In this document: positions 6,626 through 19,850 of the stretch, piece by piece
How positions within the stretch are numbered: the first letter of the stretch is position 1
Layout of the letters: every line of letters begins with the position of its first letter
Assembly: GCF_000711295.1 (NCBI RefSeq)
Contig: NZ_JOMJ01000003.1
Coordinates: 1,995,501-2,059,500, forward strand
Direction of reading: 5' to 3'
Source: Desulfohalovibrio reitneri
GTDB lineage: Bacteria > Desulfobacterota > Desulfovibrionia > Desulfovibrionales > Desulfovibrionaceae
DNA: 64,000 nt
Notes under the pieces: model-generated
The model's database searches: none
What the model was told of the DNA's origin: nothing
The model's input: only the letters and a program-made list of their open reading frames with translations
Made by a program: the position numbers and the translations under genes

Positions 6626-8743
6626 CTAGACGCGCACGGCGGCGTCGCCGGTGACGTCGGCGAACTCCTCGCATTCCTCCTCGGGCAGGCCTTCGGAGGT
6701 GAGGGGCAGTTCGATGATGAAGACGGTGCCGGGGCCGGGCTGCTTGATTTGGCCGTGGCCGGAGCCCAGGTAATCCACCGGCGCGGGGGATACGGCGGAG
6801 ATGCGGCCCTTGTGCTCCTTGATGATGCCGAAGGAGATGGACAGGCCCAGGCCGGTGCCCTTGCCCACCTGCTTGGTGGTGAAGAAGGGGTCGAAGATTT
6901 TCTTGAGGTTCTCCTGGGAGATGCCCGAGCCGGAGTCGGCGAAGAATACCACCACCCGTCGGCGGTGCTTGCAGAGCTTGGAGCGGATGAAGATGGTGCC
7001 GTCCTGGCCGATGGAGTCGAAGGCGTTGTTGACCAGGTTGAGCCAGACCGATTTGAGCTTTTCCTTGTCGCCCTCGATGGGGGGTATTTTGGGGTCGAGG
7101 TCCAGCTCCAGCTCCACCCGGTCCTGCTTGAAAATGGTGCGGACCAGGTTGGCCACCTCGTCGATGGACTCGTTGAGGTCCATCTTCTGCAGCGAGGACT
7201 CGGACTGGCGGGAGAAGCCGAGGAGGTCGGCCACGATTTTCTTGCAGACCTTGGTCTGCTTTTCGATGACGGCTACGTCTTCGTGCTCCTGGGACTTTTC
7301 GGGCAGGTCCTCCAGAAGCATCTGGGTGTAGCCGAGGATGATGCCCAGGGGGGTGTTGATCTCGTGGGCCACGCCTCCGGCCAGCCTGCCCAGGTCCTCC
7401 ATCTTCTGGGACTGGATGAGCTGTTCCTGGTAGTTCTTCACCGCGGAGATGTCGCGGGCGGTGAGGAGGAGGCCGATGATGTTTGACTCGGCGTCGTAGA
7501 CCGGCACCTTGACGATGTGGAACCAGCGCTTGGCGTTCTCGTGGGAGACCATGACCTCCTTGGACACGGGGATGCCGGTCTGCAGGATCTCCTTGTCCTC
7601 CACGCGGTTGGTGTGCTGGTCCTGGATGGAGAATACCGAGTGGTCGGTGCGGCCGATGATGTCCTGCTCGCGCAGGTTGAAATAGCGGCAGAAGGCCTTG
7701 TTCACGGCTCGGTAGGCCCCGTTCTCGTCCTGCAGGGAGACCAGGTCCGGGGTGACGTCGAAGATGGTGCGCAGTAGTTGCTCGGAGCGGGCCAGGTTCT
7801 TTTCCGTGGACTTGAGTTCGTCGATGTGCGTCTTGAGGGAGACGGCCATGACGTCGAAGGCCTCGGCCAGGTCCTGAATCTCGTCGCCCCGGTTTTCGCG
7901 GTAGACGCGGCAGTCACTGCAAGACTCGATCTTGTGGGGGTAGTCGCCGGGGGCGCACTCCGGGCAGAGGGTTCCGGCCACGTACCAGCAGCGGCGGCAG
8001 GGGTCGCCGTAGGCCGGGCACTCCTTGCGGTCGCAGTTCATTATCTCCCAGCAGTTGGCGGATATGGTCGGCCCGGCCAGGACGTCGAGGTTGCCCTTGA
8101 CCACTTCCTCGGCGGACTCCCGCAGGGCGCCCAAGCGGCGGGTGACGGTGCGGATGAAGACCGAGCCCAGTCCCACGGCCAGGACAGCCACCAGCCCCAG
8201 GGAGAGGACGATGGCCCAGGCCACGTCGCGCCGGGCGGCGCGGATGCGGTCCTGGGACAGGCCCACCCGGACCACGCCCAGGGTGTCGCCTTCCACGTCC
8301 ACGTGGTGGGCGAAGTCGTAGACGCGCTGGGAGCCGATGTCGAGAACGGCGTCGGACTGGCCCTCATCCCGCGGAATGGGGTTGGCCCGGGCCAGTTCCA
8401 CAGGGAAGCCGCCGATGAAGGAATGGGCCAGCACCTGTCCCCGCGAGTCCAGCACGAAGGCGTAGACGATGTCCGGCGAGGAGGCGGCCTCATCGGTCAT
8501 GTTCTTCAGCCGCAAAAGGTCTACGGAGAGGATGGGGCCCACGGAGCGGGCGGCCAGGGAGGAGGCCAGGGTGGCCCCGCGTTTCTTGGCCTCCTTGGTC
8601 AGGGCCGCGCCGGAGATGTTGGAGGAGAGCAGCACCGAGGCCACCCCGGCCATGAAGAGCAGGCCGCCGATGCCCAGGTAGATTTTGGCCGCGAAGGAGA
8701 GGCGGCAGAGGTAGCGGTAGGCCATTACCGCCGGGTTGGTCAT
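6626..8743 (-). CDS. Membrane sensor histidine kinase with Cys-rich 'CW' insert in its HAMP region and a PAS domain
   Basis: 705 residues. Transmembrane helices at about 21-41 and 176-196 enclose a periplasmic sensor of about 130 residues. A HAMP-like linker (197-222 and 283-305) is split by a Cys-rich segment at 231-278 (ANCWEIMNC, CPAY, RRCW, CPEC, CSDC). Then come a PAS domain (about 320-440), the phosphoacceptor H460 in GGVAHEINTP and an HATPase_c domain with N, G1 (DSGSGI) and G2 (GKGTGLGLS) boxes. The start overlaps the stop of the PhnD-like gene (ATGA), which suggests that the binding protein feeds the sensor. No response regulator is adjacent. Confidence 0.93.
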   Translation of the reverse strand: MTNPAVMAYRYLCRLSFAAKIYLGIGGLLFMAGVASVLLSSNISGAALTKEAKKRGATLASSLAARSVGPILSVDLLRLKNMTDEAASSPDIVYAFVLDSRGQVLAHSFIGGFPVELARANPIPRDEGQSDAVLDIGSQRVYDFAHHVDVEGDTLGVVRVGLSQDRIRAARRDVAWAIVLSLGLVAVLAVGLGSVFIRTVTRRLGALRESAEEVVKGNLDVLAGPTISANCWEIMNCDRKECPAYGDPCRRCWYVAGTLCPECAPGDYPHKIESCSDCRVYRENRGDEIQDLAEAFDVMAVSLKTHIDELKSTEKNLARSEQLLRTIFDVTPDLVSLQDENGAYRAVNKAFCRYFNLREQDIIGRTDHSVFSIQDQHTNRVEDKEILQTGIPVSKEVMVSHENAKRWFHIVKVPVYDAESNIIGLLLTARDISAVKNYQEQLIQSQKMEDLGRLAGGVAHEINTPLGIILGYTQMLLEDLPEKSQEHEDVAVIEKQTKVCKKIVADLLGFSRQSESSLQKMDLNESIDEVANLVRTIFKQDRVELELDLDPKIPPIEGDKEKLKSVWLNLVNNAFDSIGQDGTIFIRSKLCKHRRRVVVFFADSGSGISQENLKKIFDPFFTTKQVGKGTGLGLSISFGIIKEHKGRISAVSPAPVDYLGSGHGQIKQPGPGTVFIIELPLTSEGLPEEECEEFADVTGDAAVRV

Positions 8744-9744
8744 TGGCCGCCTCCCACGGTGATCTCCCCGGCCGACTCCAGCCGCTTGATGAGGTCGCGC
8801 ACCGGGTCGAAGTCGGAGTCCCTGGCGGCCACCACGCCCTGGAAGTGGGCACGCTCCAGGATGGCCCTGTCGTCCGGGTCATCGCGGTCCAGGGCCAGCA
8901 GGGCGTCGCGTATGCGCTGGGTGACGGAGGCGGACAGGCCCTTGCGGGCGGCGAAGGTCCAGCCGGGGTAGTCGCGGGTGGAGGCCACCACCTTGAGCTC
9001 GTCCAGGTCGATGCGGTCGGCCAGCAGGGCTCGGGTGCCGGAGCGCACAGTGCCCACTTCGAACTTGCCGTAGTACACGGCCAGGACGACCTTTTCCTGC
9101 TTGCCACCCGGCCCGGGGGCGAAATCGATCTCGGCGAAGTCCGACTTGGAGAGGCCGTGCTCCAGGAAGTGGCCCAGGGGAAAGAGGTAGCCCCCGGCCG
9201 AGGTGGGGTCCACGGCGATCCAGCGCTTGCCCCGGCAGTCCAGCAGGGAGGATATGAACTCGTTGTCGCGGCGGGCGATGATCTCGCCGTAGAAGCCTCG
9301 GGAGCCCGGTTCCTCGATGCGGGCGAAGGCGGTGGCCCCGAAGCGCTGGTTGATCTTCACGTAGGCGAAGGGGTTGAGAAAGGAGATGTCGATGGCCCCT
9401 TCGCCGACCATGGAGATGTGGTCGTCGAAGGTGTCCGGAAAGACCTGGCGCAGCCGCAGGCCGGTGGCCTCGGCCAGATAGTCCACAAGCGGGCCGTGGC
9501 GGCGGTAGGAAACGGTGTGGGAGTACTGCGGCAGGTAGGCGTAGGTCAGGCCGCCCGGGGGCTGCTCCAGGTTGACCTCCACGCGCTTGGAGAGGTCGAC
9601 CTGGACCACCTCCTCGTCGTCGCCGCAGCCGGCCAGCGCCAGGGCGAGGACGAGAGCGGCCAGCCCGGCCAGCAGGGGGGCCAGCAGGAGGAAGGTGCGG
9701 GTCAGGTCCCGCCAGACGCGTCGAGGTTCGTCCGCCGGCGGCAT
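8740..9744 (-). CDS. PhnD-like phosphate/phosphonate-type binding lipoprotein
   Basis: About 334 residues. An N-terminal hydrophobic stretch ends in the lipobox LALAGC, so it should be a periplasm-facing lipoprotein. The rest is a type-2 periplasmic binding fold of the PhnD family (YLPQYSHTVSYRRHGPLVDYLAEATG; DISFLNPFAYVKINQ; DPTSAGGYLFPLGHFLEHG; VGTVRSGTRALL). No ABC permease or ATPase is nearby; it is coupled by a 4-nt overlap to the sensor kinase, so it probably acts as the kinase's ligand-sensing partner and not in import. The start is uncertain: 9744 is used here, 9774 is also in frame, and neither has a clear ribosome site. Confidence 0.82.
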   Translation of the reverse strand: MPPADEPRRVWRDLTRTFLLLAPLLAGLAALVLALALAGCGDDEEVVQVDLSKRVEVNLEQPPGGLTYAYLPQYSHTVSYRRHGPLVDYLAEATGLRLRQVFPDTFDDHISMVGEGAIDISFLNPFAYVKINQRFGATAFARIEEPGSRGFYGEIIARRDNEFISSLLDCRGKRWIAVDPTSAGGYLFPLGHFLEHGLSKSDFAEIDFAPGPGGKQEKVVLAVYYGKFEVGTVRSGTRALLADRIDLDELKVVASTRDYPGWTFAARKGLSASVTQRIRDALLALDRDDPDDRAILERAHFQGVVAARDSDFDPVRDLIKRLESAGEITVGGGQ

Positions 9745-16294: not shown

Positions 16295-17491
16295 TCAGAC
16301 TAGGCTGAGCAGATGCTGGATGAGCAGGTGGGGGTCCAGCAGGGGGACGGATTCTTCCGAGACCAGGGTGGTGTCGATGACCTCCACTCCGAAGCGGCGT
16401 ATCCTGTCCAGTTCCAGGGGGCCGCCGTAGTCGGCGTTTTTGGAGTCCACCAGAATGAAGTTCAGCAGGGAATCGCGGGAGGCTTTGGCGGAGCAGCCCC
16501 GCTCCAGGTAGCCGAACAGGGTCTTCACCGCTCCGGCCACGCTCAGGCCCTTCATCTCCGGATCGCCCGCCACGTTGGGCACGTAGACCTTGGGGCACTC
16601 TGTGGTGCGGATGGCGTCCCCCACCCCGCGCGGAAGCAGGTTGGCCACCAGGGAGGTGTAGAAGGAGCCGATGGGGTAGACGATGATTTCCGCCGAATTG
16701 ATGAGCCGGCGCATCTTGTCGCGGATGGGCAGGTCGGCGGGCTGGGGGTTGTCCGGGTCCAGCGTGGCCCACAGACGGACCACGGGGGATGAGATGGGTG
16801 GGACTTCCTTGCCGGTGAGCCGGTGTTGGCCGACCACCACCGAGCCGTCCTCGAGTTCGGCCGCCAGGTGGGCGTTGCGGTTGACCACCGGACGCACCGT
16901 GCCCCGGGCTTCAACCAGCTTGGTGAAGAGGTAGATCACGGGGTCGATGTGGCGGCGCTGGTTGAAGTAGCCGCCGGTGAGGATGAGGTTGCCGATGGAG
17001 GCGCCGCGCAGGTCGAAGTCCTCTGGCATGCGCTCGCGGAAGAAGCCGAGGTGCGAACGGATGATCTTGCGCATGGGGTCGGGCACGGCCGCCACCATGG
17101 GGTCCTTGCCGCGCACCAGCTGGTCCAGCCTGGCGCGCAGGTCGCCGTTGGCCTCGCCAGTGGGCAGGCGGGTGGCGAAGAGATCGAAGATTTCCGGGTT
17201 GCCCTTGAGGGTGCGGTCGGCCAGGGCCATGAGGCGGTTGCGGATGTCGCCCACGGCCAGCATGCCGAAGGCTTGCCGGATGGTGGCGGAGCTTCCCCCG
17301 GAGTCGAAGGGGGTCATGACGTGGATGGAGTTGTGGGTGGAGGAAATGATTTCCCGCGACAGGTCGCGCAGGGCGGTGCCGCCTGTGAAGAACAGGGCGC
17401 GCGGCCCAAGGTCCGGTACGCGGCGGTAGCGGGCCAGCTTGACCGGATCGGGGGTGGTGACGCTGCGGGTGACGCGGAGGTGTTGCGGCAT
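16295..17491 (-). CDS. CofD/YvcK-family protein (GAK-system-like)
   Basis: 398 residues. Rossmann-like CofD/YvcK fold signatures: FFTGGTALRDLSREI near the N-terminus, TPFDSGGSSATIRQAFG, ASIGNLILTGGY, IIVYPIGSFYTSL. True CofD transfers phospholactyl groups in F420 synthesis; YvcK-type members bind UDP-sugars and affect cell shape. The long middle section and the RQAFGMLAVGDIRNRLMALAD stretch look like the 'GAK system CofD-like' branch, but I see no GAK kinase or ATP-grasp gene next to it. The ATG at 17491 is preferred (AGGAG 5 nt upstream) over 17524. Confidence 0.78.
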   Translation of the reverse strand: MPQHLRVTRSVTTPDPVKLARYRRVPDLGPRALFFTGGTALRDLSREIISSTHNSIHVMTPFDSGGSSATIRQAFGMLAVGDIRNRLMALADRTLKGNPEIFDLFATRLPTGEANGDLRARLDQLVRGKDPMVAAVPDPMRKIIRSHLGFFRERMPEDFDLRGASIGNLILTGGYFNQRRHIDPVIYLFTKLVEARGTVRPVVNRNAHLAAELEDGSVVVGQHRLTGKEVPPISSPVVRLWATLDPDNPQPADLPIRDKMRRLINSAEIIVYPIGSFYTSLVANLLPRGVGDAIRTTECPKVYVPNVAGDPEMKGLSVAGAVKTLFGYLERGCSAKASRDSLLNFILVDSKNADYGGPLELDRIRRFGVEVIDTTLVSEESVPLLDPHLLIQHLLSLV

Positions 17492-17554
17492 GGGGGCTCC
17501 TGGCGGGTGGTTGGGAGAGGCCATTGTGCCACGGAGTCCGTGGCGGTTTAAAGA

Positions 17555-18031
17555 CTAGGCCGCCCGTTCGCCCGCCTTGCGCGCCTCGGAGGCTGTCCGC
17601 TTGTCGATGTAGTCCAGCAGAAGGCAGGTTTCGGCCATGTCCTGGCCCAACTGCCCCACCAGCTTGCTGGCCTTCTCGTGCTGCTCCAGCTTGATGTGCC
17701 CCTGGCGCAGCAGCCAGTCCGCCATGGCCTGATCGCGGATTTGCTTGGCGTGGCGCTTCTTTTCCGGTGCCGCCCCGGGGTCTTCCGGCGGAGGTTCCGC
17801 GGTTGCCTCCTCCAGCTCCCACCTGGCCCGCGCAACCTCGGCCCGCGCCTGGTCAAGCTCGGCCTGCAGCTCCGCCTGCCGTTCGCGCGCTTGGCGGTAT
17901 TCCTCGCGCAGTTCATCCTCCTGGCGGCCTATGTCGTCCATGGCCTTCTCCCGCCAGGAGGTGATGCGGCGCACACCAACCAGGCTGCCAGCGCCCAGAA
18001 TCACCAGCACCGCGACGGTCAGCCAGATCAT
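17555..18031 (-). CDS. Membrane-anchored coiled-coil protein with MshEN-like C-terminal domain, cassette 2
   Basis: 158 residues, no named family recognised. N-terminal transmembrane helix (IWLTVAVLVILGAGSLVGV), a coiled coil at about 25-75 (EEYRQARERQAELQAELDQARAEVARARWELEEA), an acidic Pro-rich linker, and a C-terminal segment WLLRQGHIKLEQHEKASKLV, GQDMAETCLLLDYIDK that is nearly identical to that of the gene at 18423. The 'G..s.eQ.ekA......G..l.e..l..gyI' pattern resembles the MshEN / type II secretion E N-terminal domain. The start overlaps the upstream small gene by ATGA. Confidence 0.7.
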   Translation of the reverse strand: MIWLTVAVLVILGAGSLVGVRRITSWREKAMDDIGRQEDELREEYRQARERQAELQAELDQARAEVARARWELEEATAEPPPEDPGAAPEKKRHAKQIRDQAMADWLLRQGHIKLEQHEKASKLVGQLGQDMAETCLLLDYIDKRTASEARKAGERAA

Positions 18032-18291
18032 TGTCCGTTCTCACCGGAGGTGTCGCCGCCGAGCCGCCCACGCAGGGCGTCCGCTTCGGCCCTGGCCTCG
18101 GCCAGCCGCCGCTCCAGGTCCTTGTTGGTTTTGCGCACGGCCTTCGTCTTGTGGCGCAGGTCCGCTTCCAGGCGCGCCAAGGCAGCCTTTTTGGTCTCAA
18201 CAACCTGCCGCGCGCCTTCGAAATGGGCCACAAGGCCTAGTACGGCCCCAACCAGGGCCAGGATACAGATCATCATCAGGAAGCCGTCCAT
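18028..18291 (-). CDS. Small membrane/coiled-coil protein starting MDG, cassette 2
   Basis: 87 residues, unrecognised family. One N-terminal transmembrane helix (MDGFLMMICILALVGAVLGLV) and then a charged coiled coil (ETKKAALARLEADLRHKTKAVRKTNKDLERRLAEARAEADALRG). A GAGAGG-like ribosome site precedes the ATG at 18291; the upstream in-frame extension has no membrane or coiled-coil sense. Paralog of the gene at 18881, which also opens MDG with a membrane helix. Translationally coupled (ATGA) to the larger partner. Confidence 0.68.
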   Translation of the reverse strand: MDGFLMMICILALVGAVLGLVAHFEGARQVVETKKAALARLEADLRHKTKAVRKTNKDLERRLAEARAEADALRGRLGGDTSGENGQ

Positions 18292-18422
18292 GGAATGCCT
18301 CTCACGCTTCGTGAAGGGGCGCGGCGTCCAAGTTCGGGGCAGACGGGGCGGAACGCCGCGCGGGACGGTTTTTAGCACAAGACGGGACGGAGGGCCACGC
18401 CGGAGGGAGGGGAAACAGGGGG

Positions 18423-18884
18423 TCAGGAGTAGGCGGCCCTGGCGGCCTCCTTGGCCGCTTCCTTGCTGATGTATCCCAGGATGAGGCAGGTTTCCAAAAG
18501 GTCCTGGCCGGTTTTGCCCACCAGTTTGGAGGCCTTCTCCAGCTGTTCGATGCTCAGGTGGCCTTGGCGCAGCAGCCAGGAGCCGGCCCGCTCGTCGATT
18601 TCACCGGCTGTGCGGGCCGGGCGCGCAGGCCGGGGCTGGTCGTCATCGGATTCAAGTCCGGAGAGCCGGTACAGCACTAGGCTCAGATTCTGCTCGGCGA
18701 TGCGGAGTTGCCGTTCCAGCTCCCTGCGCTCGCCCATGGCCTCCTCCAGCCTGCTGGTGAGCCGCGCCTCCCGCGCCTTGATCTCGCGTGTCCTGGCATC
18801 GCTCCAGAGGTGCAGGCGCTGGCAGGCCAAAAGCCCGAAGATGAGCAGGGCCGAGAGCAGAGCCACCACCAGCAGGATGGTCAC
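18423..18884 (-). CDS. Membrane-anchored coiled-coil protein with MshEN-like C-terminal domain, cassette 1
   Basis: 153 residues starting at a GTG (18884) that overlaps the stop of the upstream small gene as GTGA, the same coupling as in cassette 2. N-terminal transmembrane helix (ILLVVALLSALLIFGLLACQ), a coiled coil (KAREARLTSRLEEAMGERRE...RQLRIAEQNLSLVL), a polar linker, and the shared C-terminal domain WLLRQGHLSIEQLEKASKLV, GQDLLETCLILGYISKEAAK. The longer upstream reading (to 18995) runs through the neighbouring gene and is not supported. Function unknown. Confidence 0.68.
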   Translation of the reverse strand: MTILLVVALLSALLIFGLLACQRLHLWSDARTREIKAREARLTSRLEEAMGERRELERQLRIAEQNLSLVLYRLSGLESDDDQPRPARPARTAGEIDERAGSWLLRQGHLSIEQLEKASKLVGKTGQDLLETCLILGYISKEAAKEAARAAYS

Positions 18885-19156
18885 GCCGGGGCCTCGTTCT
18901 CCGCGCTTCGGCTCTCTTCTGCGCTGACGCGCAGTTCGGCGTCGATGGCCCGCGCGTGGACTTCCTTGATCTTGGCGCGCAGTTCCTCGTTGCACCTGGC
19001 CAGGCCGTCAAGCTTGGCCTTGACCAGAGCTTCCTTGCGTCGCAGGCAGGTGCGGCGCATCTCCACATGCTTGCGGACGCGGTCCAGCACGCCGAGCAGG
19101 ACCAGCAGTTCGGTGACCCCCGCCAAGAGGACGAGCATCAGCCATAATCCGTCCAT
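18881..19156 (-). CDS. Small membrane/coiled-coil protein starting MDG, cassette 1
   Basis: 91 residues, unrecognised. N-terminal transmembrane helix (MDGLWLMLVLLAGVTELLVLLG), then a basic stretch and a coiled coil (RKEALVKAKLDGLARCNEELRAKIKEVHARAIDAEL). GGAGGA lies 6 nt before the ATG at 19156. First gene of the four-gene set 19156-17555, which is followed by the CofD-like gene. Length, topology and coupling match its paralog at 18028, so the pair arose by duplication of a two-gene cassette. Confidence 0.68.
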   Translation of the reverse strand: MDGLWLMLVLLAGVTELLVLLGVLDRVRKHVEMRRTCLRRKEALVKAKLDGLARCNEELRAKIKEVHARAIDAELRVSAEESRSAENEAPA

Positions 19157-19269
19157 GCGTTCCTCCGTATCGGTTTGCCAAATGAAGGCGATACCAGACC
19201 GGGAGCGTGTGGCAATGGGGTGAAACCCCCAAATTAATGGGTTTCGCCACCCTTTCGGGGCTGGAACGA

Positions 19270-19358
19270 ACACAGCCGCCAGGCCTGCAGGCCGGGCGGC
19301 TGTGTCGGAAGCGTTCCGGGAGCGTGTGGGGAGGACGATTCCCGCGCGGGAATCGTCC
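19270..19358 (-). terminator. Two hairpins ending the antiporter operon
   Basis: A perfect 26-bp palindrome (GGACGATTCCCGC and its complement, 19333-19358) lies just past the cNMP-protein stop. It is followed on the minus strand by a larger stem (ACACAGCCGCC / GGCGGCTGTGT, 19270-19305). U tracts are weak. Confidence 0.5.
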
Positions 19359-19370
19359 ATCCGCAAGGAA

Positions 19371-19850
19371 CTAGCTCTGGATTTTCTCCAGATCGGGATG
19401 GGTCTCCAGGACTTTCACCAGTTGGCTGGTGCGAAGCTTGAGCCTGTCCATGAGCAGCTGGTTGAGGTTGGCCATGAACCGATAGCCCGCGTCCTGGTGC
19501 TCGGACAGCAGGGCCAGCAGGTCGGTTCCCTTGACTTCGGCGACCTGGCACTCGTCGCTGCAGATCACGTTCGTCTGGTACCGGCCGCCCTCGACCAGGG
19601 AGGACCAGCCGTAGCAGTAGCCGGTGCGGACGTCGCCGAGGGTGACTTTGAATTCATCGTCGACCGCGTCCTCCAGCTTGGCCTTGCCCCGGATGTGGAA
19701 GAAGAAGGTGTCCGCGGGCTCGCCCTGGGCCATGACGAGGTCGCCCTCTTTGTAGCTCGTGACCGTGGCCATCCCGTTCAGGGCGTCCACGACGTTCTGG
19801 GGCAGACCTTCCAGCAGGCGGAAGCGCTTGGGGTCAAGTACAGCATTCAT
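19371..19850 (-). CDS. Cyclic-nucleotide-binding-domain protein without DNA-binding domain
   Basis: 159 residues forming one cNMP-binding domain of the CRP/cyclic-nucleotide-gated family (YKEGDLVMAQGEPADTFFFHI; GDVRTGYCYGWSSLVEGGRY) plus C-terminal helices. There is no helix-turn-helix, so it is not a transcription factor. It follows the last antiporter gene by only 21 bp on the same strand, so it may sense a nucleotide or act on the antiporter complex. The canonical phosphate-binding GE..LL..R..A motif is replaced by YCYGWSSLVEGGRYQ, so the ligand is uncertain. Confidence 0.82.
   Translation of the reverse strand: MNAVLDPKRFRLLEGLPQNVVDALNGMATVTSYKEGDLVMAQGEPADTFFFHIRGKAKLEDAVDDEFKVTLGDVRTGYCYGWSSLVEGGRYQTNVICSDECQVAEVKGTDLLALLSEHQDAGYRFMANLNQLLMDRLKLRTSQLVKVLETHPDLEKIQS

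Follow-up and report, generated by a model that had tools for sequence, protein, structure and literature searches.

Coupled membrane coiled-coil protein pairs of the Desulfovibrionales carry an MshEN-like domain that has largely lost its cyclic di-GMP contact residues

Organization of the locus

The window, a 64,000-nucleotide stretch of the Desulfohalovibrio reitneri genome, contains two gene pairs in tandem on the minus strand (19156–17555), each encoding a small and a larger membrane/coiled-coil protein (Table 1). In the direction of transcription the order is small A, large A, small B, large B and a gene of the CofD family. In all four proteins a single N-terminal hydrophobic segment leads into a charged region rich in heptads, and the large proteins comprise a membrane helix, a coiled coil, a linker and an MshEN-like domain. 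The AlphaFold model of large B predicts a single helix at residues 2–77, followed by the linker and a four-helix domain. A sequence-only reading of this DNA had described two adjacent pairs built to one plan, each coupled by a 4-nt overlap and running on the same strand into a CofD/YvcK-like gene; all four reading frames, both overlaps and the co-directional CofD gene are confirmed.

The homology-supported start of the CofD-like gene lies at 17491, and a longer reading frame begins at 17524. Upstream of small A, across a gap of approximately 210 bases, lies a cNMP-binding gene (19371–19850), which is not counted as part of the unit. This gap (19157–19370) contains two strong inverted repeats, GC-rich and perfect or nearly so, without a T-run. 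A search of the region for sigma-70 promoter-like sites gave none, and its terminator-like sites do not exceed those of shuffled sequences.

Table 1 Features of the tandem pairs and the adjacent CofD-like gene, with positions in the window.
Feature	Position	Strand	Basis
Small protein A (first gene of unit A), 91 aa, begins MDG	18881..19156	(-)	sequence; small-family HMM match
Large protein A, 153 aa, GTG start	18423..18884	(-)	sequence; NF053729 match aa 101-147
GTGA 4-nt start/stop overlap, small A/large A coupling	18881..18884	(-)	sequence
MshEN-like domain of large A, aa 101-147	18444..18584	(-)	NF053729 match, profile-profile comparison, residue counts
Small protein B (first gene of unit B), 87 aa, begins MDG	18028..18291	(-)	sequence; small-family HMM match
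Large protein B, 158 aa, ATG start	17555..18031	(-)	sequence; AlphaFold model
ATGA 4-nt overlap, small B/large B coupling	18028..18031	(-)	sequence
MshEN-like domain of large B, aa 96-158, four helices	17558..17746	(-)	AlphaFold model, structure searches
GAK-system CofD-like gene (TIGR04357)	16295..17491	(-)	63 nt after large B

Conservation and coupling of the pair

Matches to the family profile (E ≤ 0.001) are present in 63 of 288 genomes of the host's taxonomic family. Full-length homologues occur in approximately 60 genomes of that family and in sister families, with dN/dS of 0.03–0.33 between close relatives; the locus is therefore not a chance arrangement, and by these ratios the pair is under purifying selection across one order. 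The first protein search of relatives gave matches in two other genera. A Desulfovibrio sp. MAG, recovered in a profile scan of genome contigs, is consistent with a family of the Desulfovibrionales. A wider profile extends full-length members to three further families of the order. With the same wider profile, no full-length member was detected in 395 genomes drawn from the phylum, the D. reitneri genome aside. Phylum-wide matches to the N-terminal half were discarded as short coiled-coil matches in long reading frames.

Within the host family, the junction between the two genes falls between −7 and +10 nt in 42 of 45 pairs, 17 of the 45 having exact 4-nt overlaps. The three sister families show the reverse order, large then small, in 13 loci, mostly with an overlap of 1–4 nt. 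That the genes are still coupled when their order is swapped argues for the importance of co-production over inherited order. Across the relatives examined, the pair is a conserved coupled unit.

Comparison of the small proteins with Pfam, NCBIfam and PHROG returned only coiled-coil look-alikes (ATP synthase b, spanin and DUFs) and no consistent family. In genus g8, a second overlapping pair (L069 7768–8258) has a larger partner of 82 aa without the C-terminal domain (C-domain), which is therefore not indispensable to the pair. In genome G021 (L100 5856–8006), the small protein is replaced by a 716-aa protein encoded upstream of the large one, which combines a membrane helix and a coiled coil with a very long acidic linker.

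Duplication of the unit

The 45-residue C-termini that the two large proteins share had been described as nearly identical; their homology holds, whereas near-identity does not, with 31 of 45 residues shared (69%). Identity is 54% over the 63-residue C-terminal segment and, at full length, approximately 35% between the large and 29% between the small proteins, which indicates that the duplication is old. A third copy, again with a small gene in front, is present elsewhere in the D. reitneri genome (contig C3, 336.6 kb). In the tree, the large proteins of the window are not sisters, and large B groups with genus g48 (support 86/81); with this moderate support, the duplication may be older than the split of the D. 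reitneri and g48 lineages.

Tandem duplication is recurrent. In G261 and G268 both copies form their own supported clades, and doubled units are also present in G078, G162 and G002. The C-domain occurs on both partners in some genomes (loci L112, L113 and L108), among them G162 and G002, and G078 has a double-domain unit beside an ordinary one. From these arrangements, the small and large proteins are probably paralogues distinguished by the absence or presence of the C-domain. In genus g3 (L112 8848–9742 and L113 7882–8800), where both partners carry the MshEN-like domain, further tandem copies follow.

The C-terminal domain

MshEN domains are best known as the c-di-GMP receptors of secretion and pilus ATPases and of glycosyltransferases. 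The NCBIfam model NF053729, which describes the MshE-related c-di-GMP motif, matches residues 101–147 of large A with an E-value of 3.3e-4, below its curated score cut-off, and matches 5 of 45 family members at E ≤ 0.05. A profile built from 33 C-domains gives a gap-free alignment of 55–56 columns with MshEN segments of pilus and secretion ATPases from the same order, scoring 34 against the canonical set (E 2.2e-6) and 44 against all segments (E 3.7e-8), these being pairwise E-values for a target named beforehand rather than database E-values. As controls, 60 column shuffles scored at most 10, and reversing the profile gave 1.4. When the family profile is run beyond the order, its strongest C-domain hits are canonical MshEN proteins whose motifs are intact. 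Searching PDB sequences with the C-domain profile yielded only weak hits to PilB and MshE (E 0.66–1.3) ranking below unrelated sequences, and sequence alone against the PDB is thus not decisive.

The predicted C-domain model (pLDDT 95.6, pTM 0.82) has the four-helix α1–α2/α3–α4 fold. The first Foldseek matches are MshE and the GSPII-A domain of PilF, with TM-scores by query length of 0.70–0.71, r.m.s.d. of 1.2–1.5 and raw E-values of approximately 0.8; the GSPII-A domain of Thermus thermophilus PilF is also the first hit of the full large B model. In the VIA alignment, with the predicted model as query, the top 11 entries are all of the MshEN/PilB/PilF type (Z 6.7–8.7), and unrelated fumarase C-termini rank below them (Z 6.5 and under). 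The MshEN-type C-terminus recognized in the sequence-only reading is thus borne out by the sequence profile, by the controlled profile–profile comparison and by the predicted fold, and on these grounds the domain is very probably a genuine MshEN homologue. No Pfam match to a T2SSE ATPase domain was found in the large proteins (153–158 aa).

Loss of the c-di-GMP contacts

In MshE, c-di-GMP is contacted by Arg, Gly and Gln residues of two RLGxx(L/V/I)(L/V/I)xxG...LxxxLxxQ motifs (PMC5013675). When 56 family members are scored with the MshE numbering and contacts (PMC5013675), the ligand positions prove to be rarely kept: Gln32 and Gly40 in one member each, Arg38 in two, Gln61 in three, Gly11 in seven and Arg9 in nine. 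The structural positions Leu14, Gly18 and Gly47 are kept in 51, 43 and 41 members, respectively. Large B is devoid of all the ligand residues listed. In large A, equivalents of Arg9, Gly11, Leu25 and Leu39 are present and those of Gln32, Arg38, Gly40 and Gln61 absent. In the model of large B, helix α1 (residues 90–110) starts approximately 12 residues ahead of the Arg9 equivalent (residue 102). The GSPII-A domain of T. thermophilus PilF does not bind c-di-GMP, and its α1 is extended by one turn and obstructs the site (PMC12002112); the extension predicted for large B would be an even longer version of that obstruction.

A c-di-GMP receptor, in which the MshEN-like domain would bind the nucleotide and the membrane pair relay the signal, would draw on the MshEN homology itself, on the four equivalents that large A retains and on the presence of canonical MshEN-motif proteins in the D. 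reitneri genome. However, the equivalents of Gln32, Gly40, Arg38 and Gln61 are gone in nearly all 56 members, large B keeps none of those listed, and its predicted α1 extension exceeds that of PilF GSPII-A, which makes a receptor very unlikely. The cyclic di-GMP responsiveness entertained in the sequence-only reading is, accordingly, unsupported.

A scan with NF053729 shows that D. reitneri encodes other proteins with proper MshEN motifs, so any c-di-GMP sensing through MshEN is more likely theirs. For this purpose NF053729 was used instead of PF05157, which models a later α/β part of the T2SSE N-region rather than the 53-residue module and whose absence in D. reitneri is therefore uninformative on c-di-GMP modules. 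MshEN-repeat proteins with largely intact motifs are encoded at L165 (G000:C1:48977–49303) and L166 4235–5074 (G000:C3:348235–349074). One MshEN-repeat protein directly follows a CheW-like gene and another lies approximately 11 kb from the third pair, which suggests a chemosensory use of these repeats.

Gene neighbourhoods

In genus g3, the unit lies between FAD-oxidase and Fe–S genes resembling a lactate/glycolate oxidase cluster, and in genus g5, presumably, between an ABC-F-like gene and leuB. The three sister families (f2–f4) have the pair at a fixed place, on the opposite strand, in a conserved cluster (12 loci). The pair is preceded there by genes for an SLT transglycosylase, a pgsA-type protein, two PilT-like ATPases, a zinc ribbon protein, an ftsB-type DivIC and a TPR protein, and followed by an unknown gene and genes for FBPase, tsaD, an HD-domain protein, a thioredoxin and a thioredoxin reductase-like protein. 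At L102 2397–13806, an example of this order-level cluster in which the pair is likewise on the opposite strand, a 255-aa gene (8433–9200) has no family match. As the neighbourhoods differ between lineages, context points to no single client of the pair.

Membrane topology

Lysine and arginine are in excess after the membrane segment in all 56 large and all 43 small proteins, and the N-terminal tails of both are virtually free of positive charge. By the positive-inside rule, the positively charged flank lies on the cytoplasmic side. The pattern, uniform in 99 of 99 proteins, points to an N-out/C-in orientation in which the coiled coil and the C-domain would face the cytoplasm, and it contradicts readings of the pair as a spanin, as FtsB or as PilN/PilO.

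The last of these would place the pair in the platform of a type IV pilus or of type II secretion, as bitopic components of the GspL/GspM or PilN/PilO kind. The relatives of the domain are indeed N-domains of pilus ATPases, pilT/pilU genes lie near the pair in the three sister families, and weak GspM matches were obtained (E 0.0011–0.007). These matches, however, are limited to the hydrophobic/coiled-coil part, and within the pilT/pilU cluster the pair is on the opposite strand. D. reitneri and the tested g5 and g8 genomes keep the pair with no PF05157 match. With the topology signal also opposite, a platform component is quite unlikely.

A phage spanin-like (Rz/Rz1) or FtsB/FtsL-like pair is barely tenable. 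The case for it consists of a match between small B and an Rz-like spanin PHROG (E 6e-5) and of DivIC matches in a few large members (best E 8.6e-4), but these extend only over the hydrophobic/heptad stretch, and the C-in signal stands against both assignments. Neither protein of the window pairs has a lipoprotein cysteine motif (lipobox), no lysis genes lie near the pair, and in the sister families a true ftsB-type gene is located separately.

Linkage to the GAK system

The CofD neighbour of the window pairs belongs to TIGR04357, the CofD of the GAK system (TIGR04354–TIGR04357). It is adjacent to, and co-directional with, the pair only in D. reitneri and three other genomes (G059, G060 and G061), where 63–127 nt separate the two in each of the four. 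In the latter three, which are all three of the genus g48 genomes, the pair sits between grasp_GAK and CofD, inside the GAK operon, and in G059 HprK_rel_B immediately precedes it. In D. reitneri, CofD is found beside the pairs, at a distance of 0.57 Mb from grasp_GAK and HprK_rel_B. The split cassette of this genome (L162 4209–9440) keeps a PhoU/APH-like gene, grasp_GAK and HprK_rel_B together, without CofD.

GAK CofD is present in 48 of 50 genomes tested, whether or not the pair is present, and no linkage between the pair and GAK is seen in the remaining sampled lineages (g5, g8, g14 and f2–f4). Being near-universal and rarely adjacent, CofD is therefore no general cassette partner, but it may be one in this lineage. 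Of the co-occurrence raised by the sequence-only reading, adjacency in D. reitneri and g48 stands and general partnership does not. The arrangement suggests, though it does not prove, a functional link between the pair and GAK in the D. reitneri and g48 lineage; one ancestral insertion inherited by the four genomes could look identical.

A closer tie, in which the pair would anchor the grasp/kinase/CofD machinery to the membrane and work only with GAK, fits its position beside CofD in the window and in three of three g48 genomes, as well as the joint placement of CofD and pairs in D. reitneri away from grasp and HprK. Against it, the 48 CofD-bearing genomes include nearly all sampled genomes without the pair, most sampled GAK-bearing lineages are unlinked, and no GAK family matched here is the pair itself; an obligate GAK accessory is thus rather unlikely.

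Proposed role

We consider it about an even call that the pair forms an inner-membrane heteromer serving as a scaffold, on which an MshEN domain blind to c-di-GMP is the docking module. Each unit would comprise two bitopic inner-membrane proteins with the N-terminus outside and the coiled coil in the cytoplasm, which translational coupling would keep stoichiometric and which would most likely zip into a heteromer through the membrane helix and coiled coil. The larger partner would hold the four-helix MshEN-type domain on a flexible linker at the cytoplasmic side, and the occurrence of the C-domain on both partners in some genomes agrees with what paralogous partners in a single complex would show. 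By analogy with the N-domain of Xanthomonas citri PilB, which lacks the c-di-GMP motif and complexes with PilZ (PMC8389850), such a membrane-tethered scaffold might recruit a soluble client. In the D. reitneri lineage the best candidate would be the GAK CofD-like protein or the GAK kinase, because the linkage is conserved, in four genomes only. Docking is the most likely role since, in pilus ATPases, MshEN domains blind to c-di-GMP form part of N-terminal regions through which regulatory proteins are contacted. Of the two options left by the sequence-only reading, an envelope scaffold is compatible with the evidence though unproven, and a nucleotide-responsive complex is disfavoured by the loss of the c-di-GMP contact residues.

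The C-domain resembles the MshEN/GSPII N-domains of MshE, PilB and PilF (NF053729; PDB entries 5HTL, 7LKM–7LKO and 9G1W) in its predicted four-helix fold, in approximately 56 residues aligned without gaps and in the conserved Leu14, Gly18 and Gly47 positions. Unlike them, the pair has no ATPase and no C-terminal MshEN_C/ND1 subdomain, and its domain is carried on a membrane coiled coil and has lost the c-di-GMP contacts. The ND0 of X. citri PilB shares the MshEN fold without the c-di-GMP motif in a protein-binding N-terminal region (PMC8389850), but belongs to a soluble ATPase that complexes with PilZ, and at least part of the PilZ-binding surface is carried there by ND1 (PMC8389850), which the pair lacks. 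The GSPII-A domain of T. thermophilus PilF is likewise a non-binder with an N-terminally extended α1 (PMC12002112), although it is part of a triple-GSPII ATPase and its motif changes are milder.

Literature searches on MshEN in Desulfovibrio, on CofD of the GAK system and on bitopic coiled-coil pairs in Desulfovibrio turned up no paper on the pair, in keeping with the sequence-only reading, to which no system of this layout was known. The MshEN domain itself is already known; its use in an ATPase-free membrane coiled-coil pair without the ligand residues was not found described. Our full proposal, which we put forward tentatively and as an outside chance, is that the pairs are undescribed, order-wide paired coiled-coil scaffolds of the inner membrane, that their docking module descends from a c-di-GMP receptor domain but is now nucleotide-blind, and that in one lineage they are plugged into GAK to bring the CofD-like protein or kinase to the membrane. 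If this is true, the MshEN fold has been reused outside secretion, and the pair would provide a natural test of the role of MshEN without its nucleotide and a handle on the uncharacterised GAK cassette. For annotation it is a warning that such proteins should not be called c-di-GMP receptors.
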